The notes beneath the pieces are model-generated. The model ran no database searches, had not been told where the DNA came from, and saw only the letters and a list, made by a program, of their open reading frames with translations. From IMG/VR virus record IMGVR_UViG_3300050015_000530, positions 1 through 34,232 of that record: a stretch of 34,232 nt of DNA; one strand, 5' to 3'. Source of the DNA: a virus. A program made the position numbers and the translations under genes. Below are positions 3,298 to 34,212 of the stretch, piece by piece (position 1 is the stretch's first letter; every line of letters starts with the position of its first letter).

Positions 3298-3939
3298 ATG
3301 GCAAGAAAAGAAAAACAATACCATTTCATATATAAGACAACAAATTTATTGAATGGTAAATATTATTATGGAATGCATTCCACTGATAATCTCAACGATG
3401 GATATTATGGGTCTGGAAAAAGATTAAAATATTCAATAAATAAATATGGTAAAGAAAATCATATTGTAGTACAACTTGAATTTCTTCCGGACAGAAAATC
3501 ATTAATTGAACGAGAGAAACTCTTAATTGATTTAAATGAAGTGGCAAAAGAAAAATGCATGAATTTGAGAATTGGTGGTAGTGGTGGATTACTTGGATTG
3601 CCGGAAGAAACAATAAAAAGAATTCGTAAGGGTGCATCAGAATTTATGACAAATTTGTGGAAAGACAAAAATTTCATTGATGGTCACGTTAAACGCTCAA
3701 GCAGAAGAATGAAGTGGTTAAATGAAACTCACGTAATAAAACATGACACTTTCACAAATAAAAAACACACAGATGAAACAAAAAGATTAATGTCAGTTAA
3801 GGCAAGTAAACATATTGGTGACAAAAATTCTCAATATGGTACTTGTTGGGTAACAAAAGATGGCATTAATAAAAAAATAAAAAATAACGATTTACTTATG
3901 TTTACCAATAATGGTTGGCATAAAGGTCGAATAATATAA
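3298..3939 (+). CDS. GIY-YIG homing endonuclease (SegA-like), copy 2
   Basis: A 213-residue paralogue of the gene at 2091. It has the same N-terminus (MARKEKQYHFIYKTTNLLNG), GIY-YIG core, acidic IERE segment and C-terminal GDKNSQYGTCWVT repeat. The middle (residues about 100-150) differs, as expected for divergent target recognition. It follows the Glu-like tRNA at 3168 and precedes a structured spacer rather than a tRNA, and its stop TAA is its own. Confidence 0.9.
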   Translation: MARKEKQYHFIYKTTNLLNGKYYYGMHSTDNLNDGYYGSGKRLKYSINKYGKENHIVVQLEFLPDRKSLIEREKLLIDLNEVAKEKCMNLRIGGSGGLLGLPEETIKRIRKGASEFMTNLWKDKNFIDGHVKRSSRRMKWLNETHVIKHDTFTNKKHTDETKRLMSVKASKHIGDKNSQYGTCWVTKDGINKKIKNNDLLMFTNNGWHKGRII

Positions 3940-4555: not shown

Positions 4556-4637
4556 ACGGGCATCGTCTAATGGTAAGACACTCTCCGTCCAAGGGGAGAA
4601 ATAGGCTGCAGTCAGGGTTCAAATCCCCTTGTCCGTG
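4556..4637 (+). tRNA. tRNA-Gly(TCC)-like, G33, long variable region
   Basis: The acceptor ACGGGCA/TGTCCGT has discriminator G, and D-stem GTCT/AGAC is good. By standard numbering the loop is CGTCCAA (TCC) with G at position 33. A six-pair stem CTCTCC/GGGGAG would instead leave a six-base loop. The T-stem is imperfect. Identity and function are doubtful. Confidence 0.55.
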
Positions 4638-4642
4638 CAAAT

Positions 4643-10128: not shown

Positions 10129-10479
10129 GGGGCAGCCTGGATTTGACAGCGTGGCAGAGTGGTATAGTAAGCAAGTGGTAGTTGAATCAGACTACGTTAA
10201 AAAGGTTCAAAACAACAAACGCAGAAGACATAATGTCTATTCCAACTTCTCTCACGAGAGGTAAAGCAGTATTCGCAAGACAAGCTGAACTTGCAATCGC
10301 AGCATAGGAATCAAAAAATTCGGCAAAGAACCCCGAACTCGATAGGGATAAATTCGAGACGGTTTGCGAATGAACCGTTGAAATCATTCGACATTTTGTT
10401 GGTTTAGGAAAATCAAATAAACTTGTAGAAAACGTATTAGTCGCATGACTGGACAAGGGTTCAACTCCCTTCTGCTCCA
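10129..10479 (+). ncRNA. ssrA: tmRNA with an unusually long tag reading frame
   Basis: The tRNA-like ends GGGGCAG/CTGCTCC with discriminator A, the 5' CTGGATTTGACAGCG block and the 3' T-arm AAGGG-TTCAACT-CCCTT identify tmRNA for trans-translation rescue of stalled ribosomes. After AACAACAAAC the likely resume codon is GCA at 10221. The frame is open to TAG at 10305-10307 and encodes 28 residues ending in AELAIAA. Usual tags have about 8-12 residues with ALAA-like ends. The ending fits a protease-recognition tag; the length is odd. Confidence 0.9.
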
Positions 10480-10502
10480 CTTCCACAAACTTTTCCGCAC
10501 TT

Positions 10503-12148: not shown

Positions 12149-12255
12149 GGCGTAGTGGTGGAATTGGTAGACACGCTGGACTTAGTGCTTTAATCAGAGC
12201 AAATCAAATCCAGTGGGCAGTAATGTCCGTGTGGGTTCGACTCCCATCTTCGCTA
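12149..12255 (+). tRNA. tRNA-Leu(TAG) with a 21-nt hairpin inserted in the anticodon loop
   Basis: The Leu-type D-arm, class II variable arm, T-arm GTGGG/CCCAT and acceptor GGCGTAG/CTTCGCT (one mismatch, discriminator A) are clear. Stem CTGGA/TCCAG closes a 28-base loop: CTTAG, then 21 extra bases, then AA. Removing the insert gives CTTAGAA (TAG). The insert folds as TGCTTT/AGAGCA with a four-base loop. Function requires removal of the insert or tolerance of it. Confidence 0.75.
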
Positions 12256-17387: not shown

Positions 17388-18488
17388 ATGAAAGTACTTG
17401 AAAAAATCGATTGGTCAGTGTTGAACACTTACATCGACAACAACCTTATTATGGCAAACAAGCACCCAGAGTATGACATCTGGATTCTCAACTATTCTCC
17501 AAAGGTTCAGTCAAAGAAATTCTGGGATGACTACACACTGTCATGCAGAGGTTTAGTCATTGACGCTGACGGTAAAATTCTTGCACGTCCATTCAGAAAG
17601 TTCAAGAACTATGAGGAACACGACCCATCAGAAATCGACATGTCGAAGAAATTCGAAGTGTTCGAAAAAATGGATGGTTCACTCATCATATTGTTCTATT
17701 ACGAAGCACGTATGGAATGGATAATTGCCTCAAGAGGTTCATTCATTTCAGAACAAATGCTTGAAGCACAAAAAATGATTAATGCTTCAATATATGACAC
17801 ATTAAACATGCGCTTGACATACTTGTTTGAAATAATCTATCCAGAAAACCGTATCGTGGTTGACTATGGTAAGAGAAGGGAACTTGTTTTACTTACAGTA
17901 ATTGAAACGTCTACTGGTTACGAAGTGCCTTACCAAAGCGTACTTCCTACTTACTCGAAATACTTCACAGTCGTTAAGAAATACGATGTAACAATCAATA
18001 ATTTAAATGACTTAAGAAGAGTTGAGGAAGATAACAAAGAAGGATTTGTTGTGAGGTTCGAAGATGGTTTCAGAGTAAAAGTTAAGTTTGCAGAATACGT
18101 CAGATTACACGGTATTCTCACAAATGTCTCAAATTTAACGATTTGGGAACACTTGAAGAGTAACTACAACTTTGACGAACTACTTGACAGAGTTCCAGAC
18201 GAATTTTATGACTGGCTACAAAAGACTGTAAATATTTTGCAATCACAATACAATGATATCGAAAGAAATGCATTGAGAGAATTTCAAATCATTTACCATG
18301 TGAACGGTGTTACAGAACGTCCTGCATTCGCTGCGCAAGCAACTAAATCAGACTTACGTTCAATACTATTCAAGTTGTACGACAAAAGGTCATACAGTGA
18401 AATAATCTGGAAGATGATTCGACCAGTTTACAGCAAACCATTTAAAGATGGTCTCGAAGTCCAAGACTTTGAGTCAGAAGTATTATAA
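17388..18488 (+). CDS. T4 Rnl1-like RNA ligase
   Basis: A 366-residue ATP-dependent RNA ligase. Motif I is EKMDGSLI with the adenylated Lys at residue 94 (T4 Rnl1 uses Lys99), motif III/IIIa is FEIIYPENRIVVDYG, motif IV is KEGFVVRF and motif V is RVKVKFAEYVRLH. The upstream LSCRGLVID and ARPFRKFKNY segments also match the family. Such ligases rejoin tRNAs cut in the anticodon loop by host nucleases such as PrrC. It is the second gene of an operon with the methyltransferase and is closed by an intrinsic terminator. Confidence 0.93.
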   Translation: MKVLEKIDWSVLNTYIDNNLIMANKHPEYDIWILNYSPKVQSKKFWDDYTLSCRGLVIDADGKILARPFRKFKNYEEHDPSEIDMSKKFEVFEKMDGSLIILFYYEARMEWIIASRGSFISEQMLEAQKMINASIYDTLNMRLTYLFEIIYPENRIVVDYGKRRELVLLTVIETSTGYEVPYQSVLPTYSKYFTVVKKYDVTINNLNDLRRVEEDNKEGFVVRFEDGFRVKVKFAEYVRLHGILTNVSNLTIWEHLKSNYNFDELLDRVPDEFYDWLQKTVNILQSQYNDIERNALREFQIIYHVNGVTERPAFAAQATKSDLRSILFKLYDKRSYSEIIWKMIRPVYSKPFKDGLEVQDFESEVL

Positions 18489-21152: not shown

Positions 21153-21265
21153 GGGAATGTGGCAGAGTGGTATGTGCAGACTGAATTGGTATACTACGTG
21201 GGTTTACAACCTTAACACGTAGAAGGGGTCTGATAAGTACGTGAGTTCGAATCTCACCATCCTCA
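21153..21265 (+). tRNA. tRNA-like gene with a complex internal insertion
   Basis: The acceptor GGGAATG/CATCCTC (one A/C mismatch, discriminator A), a Ser-like D-arm GCAGAGTGGTATGTGC and a perfect T-arm GTGAG/CTCAC bracket an oversized centre. There CAGAC/GTCTG encloses a second D-like stretch AATTGGTATAC and a long arm CTACGTG/CACGTAG topped by GGTTTACAACC. The anticodon cannot be assigned. It may be a chimera of two tRNAs. Confidence 0.5.
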
Positions 21266-21270
21266 CAAAT

Positions 21271-27848: not shown

Positions 27849-28310
27849 ATGGTTCTAAGAAATAAAATAATCGAACTGAGGCAACAGGGAAAAAGCTATA
27901 GAGAAATCGAAAAGGAATTACAATGTTCAAAGTCAATGATTTCCATTTATTGTAGAAAATCAGGATTGGGTGGTGATGGTAGAACGAATTTAAGTGATGA
28001 AGATAAAAGAATTGCAAATTATCAACACGTTAAATCTCATCGACAAAAAATAAAAGAAAGAGCAATTGAATATAAAGGTGGAAAATGTGAGAAATGTGGA
28101 TATAAAAAATGTAATAGAGCACTTGAATTTCATCATACGAGTCCCAATGAAAAAGATTTTACAATATCGAAATATTCTGTATTGTCTTGGAATAAAGTGA
28201 AAATTGAGTTGGATAAATGTATTTTAATTTGTGCAAATTGTCACAGAGAATTACATGATGATGAATATTTAAATAATAGGGATGTATTCCCTCTGTCTGA
28301 TAAGCAGTAG
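27849..28310 (+). CDS. HNH homing endonuclease with HTH
   Basis: A 153-residue protein. The N-terminal HTH (GKSYREIEKELQCSKSMISI) is followed by a compact HNH/treble-clef: KGGKCEKCGYKK, ALEFHHTSPNEKDFTIS, WNKVKIELDKCILICANCHR, ELHDDEY. The C-terminal FPLSDKQ and the stop are encoded by sequence that also looks like the anticodon arm of a tRNA-Ile, so the ORF ends inside that tRNA-like gene. Confidence 0.88.
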   Translation: MVLRNKIIELRQQGKSYREIEKELQCSKSMISIYCRKSGLGGDGRTNLSDEDKRIANYQHVKSHRQKIKERAIEYKGGKCEKCGYKKCNRALEFHHTSPNEKDFTISKYSVLSWNKVKIELDKCILICANCHRELHDDEYLNNRDVFPLSDKQ

Positions 28311-28354
28311 AAAGGATAGTTGGTCACACGTGGGTTCAACTCCCACCCTCCCTA
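28278..28354 (+). tRNA. Rearranged tRNA-Ile(GAT)-like gene
   Basis: The acceptor AGGGATG/CCTCCCT (one mismatch, discriminator A) and a perfect T-arm GTGGG/CCCAC are present, and loop CTGATAA (GAT) sits on TCTGT/GCAGT. Only seven bases separate the acceptor from the anticodon arm, and a D-loop-like ATAGTTGGTC lies 3' of it. The order is acceptor, anticodon, D-like, T. It overlaps the HNH end. Confidence 0.45.
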
Positions 28355-28482: not shown

Positions 28483-28556
28483 TCCTATAGTAGCATATTA
28501 TCGGCAAAATGCTGCCCGTAGAAGGGTGTATGTAGGTTCAAATCCTATCGTAGGAG
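28483..28556 (+). tRNA. tRNA-like gene with six-base anticodon loop
   Basis: The acceptor TCCTATA/CGTAGGA (one mismatch, discriminator G), D-stem AGCAT/ATGCT and T-arm GTAGG/CCTAT are good. The anticodon stem TGCCC/GGGTG leaves only GTAGAA as loop, so the anticodon cannot be assigned (AGA or TAG depending on register). Confidence 0.5.
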
Positions 28557-29765: not shown

Positions 29766-30422
29766 ATGGCACGAAAAGAAAAACAATACCATTTCATTTA
29801 TAAGACAACTAACTTATTGAGTGGTAAATATTATTACGGAATGCATTCTACTAATAATCTCAATGATGGTTATTATGGTTCTGGAAGAAGATTAAGACGT
29901 TCTTTGAATAAACACGGTAAAGAAAATCATGTTGTTGAGTATATTGAATTTCTTCCGGATAGGATTACATTATGTAATCGTGAAAAAGAGATTGTTAATT
30001 TAAATGAAATTGCAAAAGAAAATTGTATGAACCTAATGATTGGTGGACAAGGCGGCTATGTATCTGATACTGCATCGAAATTAGGGTGGCAAAAAATGGA
30101 TGAAATACTTTTTAATAAATATGGATTAAATTGTCATAGTATAGTTTCAAAGAATTATTATGATTCACTTACCACAGAAGAATTGTTATTACATAAGAAA
30201 AAAATCAGTGAAGGACTAAAAAATGCTGAATTTAATTGTAAAACATTTCTCGGTAAAAACCATTCGGTAAGTACCATTAATAAAATGAGAAAGAATAAAA
30301 ACATCGGAAATAAAAATTCACAATTCGGCACTTGTTGGATAACAAATGGATGTGACAATACAAAAATCAATAGAAACGATAAACTACCAATAAATTGGAA
30401 ATATGGTAGAACTTTGAAATAA
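29766..30422 (+). CDS. GIY-YIG homing endonuclease (SegA-like), copy 3
   Basis: A 218-residue paralogue of 2091 and 3298 with the same first 20 residues and core (YHFIYKTTNLLSGKYYYGMH, GYYGSGRRLRRSLNKHG, NREKEIVNLNE). The middle third is divergent. NUMOD3-like SVSTINKMRKNKNIGNKNSQ precedes a CWIT segment. It lies between tRNA-Gly and tRNA-Ile(TAT) and stops six bases before the latter. The shared leader implies recent spread of one cassette. Confidence 0.9.
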   Translation: MARKEKQYHFIYKTTNLLSGKYYYGMHSTNNLNDGYYGSGRRLRRSLNKHGKENHVVEYIEFLPDRITLCNREKEIVNLNEIAKENCMNLMIGGQGGYVSDTASKLGWQKMDEILFNKYGLNCHSIVSKNYYDSLTTEELLLHKKKISEGLKNAEFNCKTFLGKNHSVSTINKMRKNKNIGNKNSQFGTCWITNGCDNTKINRNDKLPINWKYGRTLK

Positions 30423-32452: not shown

Positions 32453-32680
32453 ATGGAAAAACTACCGAGTGAAAATCATGAAGAAAAATTCTTGGCAAAG
32501 TTAAGGTCAAGATTTAAAGTATATGTTGACATAACACCACATCTTGTAAAAGTTGCAATTGTCACATTAATTGTTTTTCTTTGCTCAATGTTTGTATGGT
32601 ATAGTTTTCTCCGTCCAGACCCAAGTAAAACAGTAATTGAAAACGTAATTCAACAATTTAAGAAAAATGAAATACACTAA
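32453..32680 (+). CDS. Single-pass membrane protein (75 aa)
   Basis: A charged N-terminal 40 residues, then one strong hydrophobic helix (VKVAIVTLIVFLCSMFVWYS) and a C-terminal amphipathic segment (TVIENVIQQFKKNEI). N-in topology is likely from flanking Lys/Arg. The size could suit a spanin- or holin-like protein, but there is no specific motif. It overlaps the downstream HNH start by 14 nt. Confidence 0.7.
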   Translation: MEKLPSENHEEKFLAKLRSRFKVYVDITPHLVKVAIVTLIVFLCSMFVWYSFLRPDPSKTVIENVIQQFKKNEIH

Positions 32681-33272
32681 AGAAGAATTTGAAAAATTAA
32701 TACTTGTAGATAAAATATCATATCGAGAAATTGGTCGTATATATGGCATATCTGATGCGTATGTGAAAAAACTGAGTAAAAGATTGGGTGTCATGTTACC
32801 CGTTAGGTCAAAATTTCCAGAAAATTTTGTTCCTGCAAATAAAGGTCAGCACAAATCACCAACATATAAAACAATAATTTGTAAAAATTGTAATAAAATA
32901 ATATCACCTTCAACGTGGAATAAACAACAATTTTGTGATAAAAATTGTGCTGGTGAATATAAATCGAAAAAAGTTTACGAGAATTATTTATTGAATCCGG
33001 ATAAATATTGTAGAGCGTCATATTCTCCAGGTCATTTTAAAAAATTTATATTGGCAGAACAAAACAATAAATGTGTTATATGTGGATTGGATAATGTTTG
33101 GAATGGTAAAATATTAATATTTATTTTAGACCATATTGACGGTGATGCCTCAAATAATAGGCGTGAAAATATTAGAATGATTTGCCCTAATTGTGATACT
33201 CAATTGGATACATATAAATCGAAAAATAAAAATTCTGCAAGAAAAGAAAGATATTTATTAATGAAAAAATAA
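32667..33272 (+). CDS. HNH homing endonuclease with HTH
   Basis: A 201-residue protein: N-terminal HTH (ISYREIGRIYGISDAYVKKL), zinc finger ICKNCNKIISPSTWNKQQFC-DKNC, and HNH core NNKCVICGLDNVWN, IFILDHIDGDASNNRRENIR, MICPNCDTQLDTYKS. The usual CPNCH His is Asp here (NCD), so the zinc site may be weakened. No GTATTTAT precedes it. It ends two bases before the rearranged tRNA-Arg(TCT). Confidence 0.88.
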   Translation: MKYTKEEFEKLILVDKISYREIGRIYGISDAYVKKLSKRLGVMLPVRSKFPENFVPANKGQHKSPTYKTIICKNCNKIISPSTWNKQQFCDKNCAGEYKSKKVYENYLLNPDKYCRASYSPGHFKKFILAEQNNKCVICGLDNVWNGKILIFILDHIDGDASNNRRENIRMICPNCDTQLDTYKSKNKNSARKERYLLMKK

Positions 33273-33274
33273 AT

Positions 33275-33349
33275 GGCTGTGTATCACAACGGTCTTCTAA
33301 ACCGTTTTAGTGTAATTGGATGATGTGGGTTCGAGTCCCATCACGGCTA
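33275..33349 (+). tRNA. Rearranged tRNA-Arg(TCT) without a D-arm in the normal place
   Basis: The acceptor GGCTGTG/CACGGCT (discriminator A), anticodon arm ACGGT-CTTCTAA-ACCGT (TCT) and T-arm GTGGG/CCCAT are all good. Only TATCACA lies between acceptor and anticodon arm. A D-arm-like GTGTAATTGGATGAT lies between the anticodon and T-arms, as if the arms were swapped. ATCA (33283) could pair with TGAT (33321). Confidence 0.6.
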
Positions 33350-33355
33350 CAATAT

Positions 33356-33427
33356 GCTCTTATAGTTTAATGGATAGAATGGGAATTTCCTAAATTTTCG
33401 ATTCGGGTTCGATTCCCGGTAAGAGTA
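33356..33427 (+). tRNA. tRNA-Arg(CCT)
   Basis: The acceptor GCTCTTA/TAAGAGT has discriminator A. Stem GGAAT/ATTTT closes TTCCTAA (CCT). The D-arm is normal and the T-arm is TCGGG/CCCGG. Confidence 0.85.
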
Positions 33428-33442
33428 CTAAAAACAATTGAT

Positions 33443-34120: not shown

Positions 34121-34195
34121 GCACCCGTAGCATAATTGGATTAGTGCATTGGTCTACGAAACCAAAGGTTGTGAGTTCGAATCTCACCGGGTGTA
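34121..34195 (+). tRNA. tRNA-Arg(ACG)
   Basis: The acceptor GCACCCG/CGGGTGT has discriminator A. Stem TTGGT/ACCAA closes CTACGAA (ACG, normally A34 deaminated to inosine by TadA). The T-arm GTGAG/CTCAC is perfect. Confidence 0.92.
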
Positions 34196-34212
34196 CAAAA
34201 CAAAACTCAAAC

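Follow-up and report, generated by a model that had tools for sequence, protein, structure and literature searches.

Genes for predicted arginine and isoleucine tRNAs with an internally permuted order in phages of many hosts

The viral contig IMGVR_UViG_3300050015_000530, whose whole stretch of 34,232 nucleotides (nt) we call the window and in which coordinates are given unless a contig is named, carries at 33275..33349 on the plus strand a gene that reads as a tRNA-Arg(TCT) whose internal segments are permuted. The sequence is exactly as a sequence-only reading of the window had claimed, namely GGCTGTG-TATCACA-ACGGT/CTTCTAA/ACCGT-TTTAGTGTAATTGGATGAT-GTGGG/TTCGAGT/CCCAT-CACGGCT-A, and the arms which that reading called near perfect have 7/7 pairs in the acceptor stem (G-U included), 5/5 in the anticodon stem and 5/5 in the T stem (one G-U). 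In standard tRNA numbering the segments run 1-9, 22-47, 10-21, 48-73, with breakpoints between 9 and 10, 21 and 22, and 47 and 48, while the acceptor strands sit at their usual two ends; no CCA is encoded.

Read from its 5′ end, the gene begins with the acceptor 5′ strand GGCTGTG (1-7; 33275..33281), which pairs with 33342-33348 by sequence and in the minimum-energy fold, and continues with U8 and A9 (33282..33283), the letters UA being present in 133/133 relatives from a parser that demanded U8 and accepted A or G at position 9. The minimum-energy fold and family comparison then place position 22 (T), the D-stem 3′ strand CAC (23-25; 33285-33287) and A26 at 33284..33288, and CAC keeps the location ahead of 26 and the anticodon stem that the D-stem 3′ strand has in ordinary tRNAs. 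The anticodon arm ACGGT-CTTCTAA-ACCGT (33289..33305), with anticodon TCT at 33296-33298, is joined by a short variable linker, TTTA (44-47; 33306..33309), to the D-stem 5′ strand GTG (10-12; 33310..33312), whose partner by folding and covariation is the upstream CAC. There follow U13, A14, A15, the D-loop letters TT, G18 G19, the arginine identity base A20, TG, A21 and U48, the Levitt partner of A15 (33313..33324), with A21 joined straight to 48 and the T stem. The T arm GTGGG-TTCGAGT-CCCAT (33325..33341) and the acceptor 3′ strand CACGGCT with discriminator A73 (33342..33349) complete the gene.

The sequence-only reading had described a swap of the D arm and the anticodon arm. The order is indeed permuted, with the D-loop after the anticodon arm, but whole arms are not exchanged, as the D-stem 3′ strand is still in front. 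What changes places is 10-21 and 22-47, and thus the D hairpin is dissolved and the D-stem is re-formed around the anticodon stem; in the minimum-energy fold, the pairing of CAC with GTG extends the anticodon stem. Since the folding energy of the gene alone is unremarkable (z -1.1), the case for a permuted structure rests on comparison. ARAGORN called 37 genes in the window, and 33275-33349 was not among them; Rfam RF00005 accepts the gene (36.5 bits) only when the D-arm is deleted and 16 nt are inserted in the variable region before the T arm.

A phage family with the same layout

We scanned viral contigs for a D-loop directly before a T arm, repeated the scan with TAGTTGGT and TAATGGT as D-loop seeds, applied as a second filter a descriptor demanding acceptor, anticodon and T stems, and then parsed the matches. 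Where the sequence-only reading had seen a single unusual gene, there is instead a large and apparently old phage family of 133 distinct permuted tRNAs, two of them in the window. Arginine anticodons account for 67 (TCT 29, ACG 22, TCG 13, CCT 2, CCG 1) and isoleucine anticodons for 63 (TAT 35, GAT 28); the remaining 3/133 have the anticodon CAT, and one TAC sequence was set aside. Because members were gathered with D-loop seeds, the prevalence and the isotype range are lower bounds; the TAGTTGGT and TAATGGT seeds, D-loops common in many isotypes, brought in only Ile, Arg and the three CAT. An exact-core pattern gave zero matches in the viral contigs, a collection that may lack near-identical records. 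The layout descriptor had 192 matches in ~7 Mb (both strands) and 0 in ten shuffles, which together with the covariance-model scores below rules out a chance origin of the layout.

The second member in the window is a tRNA-Ile(GAT) at 28278..28354 on the plus strand, AGGGATG-TATTCCC-TCTGT/CTGATAA/GCAGT-AGAAAGGATAGTTGGTCACAC-T arm, with a G15/C48 Levitt pair. It was also missed by ARAGORN, and an ordinary Ile(GAT) is encoded next to it. Two permuted Arg tRNAs, at L042:2260-2346 (87 nt) and L047:5228-5318 (91 nt), have extra sequence around the anticodon arm or the variable linker.

Across the family the re-formed D-stem is supported by covariation, with Watson-Crick pairs at 11-24 in 130/133 (shuffle maximum 61), at 12-23 in 131/133 (shuffle maximum 92) and at 10-25 in 104/133 (shuffle maximum 69). 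The Levitt pair 15-48 is A-U or G-C in 124/133 (shuffle maximum 86), being A-U in 66/67 Arg copies and G-C in 36/63 or A-U in 20/63 Ile copies. Position 20, in part preselected, follows the isotype: A20 is found in 65/67 Arg and T20 in 61/63 Ile copies. In alignment A2, which is gapless, has 38 members and excludes the window, the covariation score of the named structure is 0.965, as against 0.227 when shuffled and 0.10-0.174 when slid; RNAalifold recovers the same helices unprompted, and compensatory double changes occur in the acceptor, D, anticodon and T stems alike. Further features common to the 38 members are a mismatch of U27 with U43 and, from the anticodon stem to the D-stem, the linker WGAAA (for example L137:10544-10620), probably a structured junction special to the permuted fold.

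We built a covariance model, R1, from A2 in the permuted layout, free of window sequences, and scored native sequences with it. The window copies score 86.5 bits (Ile) and 54.2 bits (Arg, E 5.9e-12) and permuted copies overall 45-87 bits, whereas all other tRNAs score at most 29 bits, whether they come from the window, from six relatives, from eight cultured phages or from two loci in metagenome-assembled genomes (MAGs), an outcome in favour of the sequence-only reading, which had proposed scoring with a permuted model. Over wider loci, true members reach down to about 34-35 bits, isolated false positives lie at 34-38 bits, and no isotype beyond Arg and Ile appears there apart from the TAC and CAT copies. 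Weak R1 matches at a normal tRNA (L118) and an odd one (L289) were set aside.

As tRNAs, the members have a 7-bp acceptor stem, a 5-bp T stem with a TTCRA loop, and an anticodon stem-loop with U33 and a purine at 37. Of the core contacts, 15-48 is seen by covariation, and 8-14, 18/19 with the T loop, and A21 as conserved letters that were partly preselected. The cloverleaf order of acceptor, D, anticodon, variable and T is not followed.

Many cultured phages carry such genes, mostly unannotated, including Streptomyces phages Coruscant, LilMartin, TunaTartare and Braelyn (three copies), Microbacterium phage Zooman, Salmonella phage SSBI34 and Vibrio phage 424E50-1. When the Arg(TCT) copy of SSBI34 was compared by BLAST with 50,697 phage records, 230 of them matched over at least 80% of its length, and among these the descriptor confirmed copies in Felix O1 (FO1a), wV8, Mushroom, phi92, Antha (annotated as tRNA-OTHER), JohannJBalmer, W70, KB57, Sugarland and Ep030. 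Permuted Ile(TAT) copies are found in Rhodococcus phage Peregrin and the crAss-like cr130_1. Because many independent isolates carry permuted tRNAs, assembly error, against which the sequence-only reading had proposed a check of raw reads, is excluded. The Felixounavirus site flanked by tRNA-Ile and tRNA-Ser is occupied by a normal Arg(TCT) in finno and BPSELC-1 and by a permuted one in Mushroom and wV8, and the surrounding sequence is near-identical; the two forms are alleles at one site, a natural exchange. A stretch of ~100-125 nt upstream of the permuted tRNA in wV8 (L351:1335-1459) also occurs, mostly unannotated, in ~157-kb Salmonella and Klebsiella phages and others.

In cellular genome contigs there were five matches, of which two were real, both on phage-like contigs in MAGs (L129, L130; Levybacteria, Marinifilum), and R1 across 484 bacterial genomes returned just those two copies and, at 38 bits, a normal tRNA-Ser. 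As both contigs are phage-like, the MAG bins contain viral sequence, and cellular use of these tRNAs is unsupported. The nearest neighbour of 132/133 permuted tRNAs, in a set biased by the search, is another permuted tRNA, which disfavours an in-situ origin from an adjacent normal gene and is better fitted by an old permuted lineage spreading by gene replacement.

Predicted decoding and rival explanations

Several observations bear on whether the permuted genes decode. Ordinary Arg(TCT) was not found in the region read of phi92, wV8, SSBI34, KB57, JohannJBalmer and 424E50-1, where the permuted gene fills the gap. Braelyn has ordinary Arg CCT and TCT genes, to which its permuted set adds TCG and ACG, and Coruscant has Ile(GAT) in both forms. 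Of 141 permuted genes in the loci that we examined, 7 have an ordinary same-anticodon neighbour and 134 are the sole copy of their anticodon. An encoded CCA end is seen in 24/31 permuted genes whose neighbouring tRNAs mostly have one, compared with 8/87 whose neighbours do not. We consider it very probable that these genes specify elongator tRNAs that work on arginine and isoleucine codons, with a backbone rewired by the exchange of 10-21 and 22-47.

The RNA would fold as the usual L, with the D-stem stacking on the anticodon stem, both strands in their normal places, to give one long hairpin, and with the D-loop leading across from the upper end of the D-stem to the T arm so that the contacts of G18/G19 with the T loop would be retained. 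In established tRNA geometry, position 9 is stacked close to 12-23, the layer formed by 8-14-21 rests on that of 15-48, and 44-47 runs beside 10; the joins 9-22, 21-48 and 47-10 thus link spatial neighbours. Such a molecule would be charged directly by arginyl- or isoleucyl-tRNA synthetase (ArgRS or IleRS), with neither splicing nor reordering, and would decode AGA, CGN or AUN codons; tRNAs for these are common in phages. The layout would most likely have arisen when the core was duplicated in tandem and the outer copies were lost, and the lineage may then have spread among phages, replacing normal genes at the same sites.

A D-armless tRNA whose variable region contained an unrelated insert would give the kind of alignment that Rfam makes at 36.5 bits, but the "insert" has a D-loop with G18G19, A20 and A21, in 130+ sequences its bases 10-12 change in step with the 5′ linker, and the layout is conserved; R1 outscores the Rfam model by about 17-60 bits at the same sites. 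The covariation refutes this explanation, to which we give almost no weight. Compensatory changes in all four stems likewise speak against decayed pseudogenes or recombination scars, as do anticodons limited to Arg and Ile with the matching base 20, a CCA end that tracks the neighbourhood, and the 134 sole copies; broken copies do occur in phage tRNA arrays and some records label these tRNA-OTHER, yet decay is a highly improbable account of the family.

Two further explanations accept a functional RNA. The transcript might be cut and ligated into 1-76 order, as happens with circularly permuted tRNA genes, and RNA ligases are at hand, a T4-type enzyme encoded in the window (17388-18488) and RtcB-like or RNA ligase genes in Zooman, TunaTartare and Braelyn. 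Such repair would require several cuts and joins, however, and intron-like extra sequence is absent, while the D-stem and 15-48 can already form in gene order with the direct joins 9-22 and 21-48; we regard repair as extremely unlikely. Permuted-topology tRNA mimics are known in viruses and bacteria (PMC11472068), and the genes could accordingly make a non-decoding decoy or regulatory RNA, similar to Y RNA or serving as bait for a synthetase or nuclease. Against this stand the anticodon, position 20 and CCA, which fit decoding, the exchange in Felixounavirus with a normal tRNA that has an identical anticodon, and the gaps in phage tRNA sets that permuted genes fill, and a decoy seems to us very improbable.

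Some points weigh against working arginine and isoleucine tRNAs. The three CAT sequences and the TAC sequence break a strict Arg/Ile rule, 10-25 is mismatched in 29/133, and U73, unusual for ArgRS substrates, is found in 16/67 Arg copies. The D-loop and T-loop search patterns preselected A14 (via the parser) and, in part, A15, A20 and A21; the anticodons, the letters and pairings of the D-stem, and position 48 are free of this preselection. The permuted tRNAs are known here from their genes, their transcription, processing, charging and use on the ribosome being predicted, and the proposed L shape draws on covariation and textbook tRNA geometry.

With these points weighed, we think it likely that the genes represent a natural class of non-circularly permuted, non-cloverleaf decoding tRNAs, widespread in phages of many hosts, nearly all specific for Arg or Ile, and possibly kept for escape from defences or selfish nucleases that target tRNAs or tRNA genes. 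That the advantage would lie in escape from tRNA-cutting defences or tRNA-gene-targeting nucleases is a guess.

Neighbouring genes in the window

A homing-endonuclease-like HNH gene (32667..33272, plus strand) ends 2 nt upstream of the permuted tRNA-Arg, so the placement directly after an HNH gene given by the sequence-only reading is true here, but it is no general feature: by a motif test, an HNH-like open reading frame (ORF) lies upstream of 6/135 permuted and 20/1041 normal tRNAs. We therefore rejected an HNH-linked mobile unit as a general explanation, although it holds in the window's own clade, where related HNH genes precede an ordinary TCT gene (L005), the permuted TCT gene (window) and a permuted ACG gene (L008). 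An ORF with a helix-turn-helix and an HNH motif (27849..28310, plus strand) overlaps the permuted tRNA-Ile by 33 nt with its 3′ end.

Two ordinary plus-strand genes, both called by ARAGORN and Rfam, serve for comparison. A tRNA-Arg(CCT) at 33356..33428 adjoins the permuted tRNA-Arg, and the nearby tRNA-Arg(ACG) at 34121..34196 has its D-loop, TAATTGGAT, in the normal place, just as the sequence-only reading had it.

The window holds other unusual tRNA-like sequences. A degenerate gene at 28484-28555 (Rfam 20 bits) has a GCAT/ATGC D-stem and lacks a proper anticodon arm, and at roughly the same place in relative L005 (8858-8928) ARAGORN makes an odd call (tgaa). Between two tRNA-Tyr genes, 21172-21268 carries an additional long helix, CTACGTG...CACGTAG, enclosing a TTTACAA loop (Rfam transfer-messenger RNA (tmRNA), 18 bits); 12149-12255 is a 107-nt match (Rfam 42 bits) missed by ARAGORN, possibly with an insert; and 4556-4638 is called as a tRNA with a four-base anticodon (ccaa). 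The phage also encodes a tmRNA (10129-10480, predicted tag AEDIMSIPTSLTRGKAVFARQAELAIAA), its T4-type RNA ligase (PF09511) accompanies a very large tRNA array, and one MARKEKQYHFIYKTTN... gene, GIY-YIG-like by eye, stands in three copies among the tRNAs (2091-2735, 3298-3939, 29766-30422).

Comparison with known RNAs

Cloverleaf order is, to our knowledge, taken to be universal among tRNAs. If the class is real, contacts of the L shape are made on a different backbone path and cloverleaf order is not required for tRNA function, natural non-circular permutation exists outside ribozymes, and the missing Arg(TCT) genes of well-studied phages are accounted for. Since tRNA finders miss or mislabel permuted genes, phage tRNA sets are miscounted. 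The limitation to two isotypes is the sharp question that the family raises, and the class can be tested now, since JohannJBalmer infects E. coli K-12 and Coruscant infects Streptomyces venezuelae, and both carry members. A 2024 paper describes all known bacterial tRNAs as cloverleaves (PMC11551756), and a review of non-canonical tRNAs makes no mention of permutation, phage or rearrangement (PMC7609411); we found no description of the class in the open-access literature, a search that leaves subscription papers and most preprints outside.

With canonical phage and bacterial elongator tRNA-Arg and tRNA-Ile, the permuted tRNAs share all helices, U8, A14, A21, G18G19, the T loop, the Levitt pair 15-48, the anticodon loop, A20 for Arg and CCA usage, but they consist of an acceptor, a long D/anticodon hairpin and a T hairpin in place of a cloverleaf. 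In D-armless or armless mitochondrial tRNAs the D-arm is lost; they resemble the phage class in the short 5′ linker ahead of the anticodon stem, whereas the phage tRNAs do have a D-stem and retain the D-arm residues, relocated and paired.

In the circularly permuted tRNA genes of red and green algae, nucleomorphs and archaea, the 3′ half precedes the 5′ half, and the RNA is circularised and cut with splicing at a bulge-helix-bulge motif to give a normal mature tRNA (PMC3978253). There, too, the gene order departs from that of mature tRNA and an origin by duplication and loss has been proposed (PMC3978253). The phage class, in contrast, keeps its ends unchanged, has neither the 3′ half first nor an intervening sequence with a bulge-helix-bulge junction, and is not expected to be reordered, in agreement with the sequence-only reading that its layout is unlike those of algae and archaea. 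Non-circular permutation has been shown for hammerhead ribozymes, in a work that mentions tRNA only for circular, later-repaired permutations (PMC10085705); type-SGC hammerheads, like the phage tRNAs, have internal segments exchanged with conserved contacts kept, the difference being that they are ribozymes and not tRNAs. Bacterial Y RNA and plant-virus tRNA-like structures also reach a tRNA shape via permuted connectivity (PMC11472068), but these mimics are parts of other RNAs, whereas the phage class consists of stand-alone, tRNA-sized genes in tRNA arrays.
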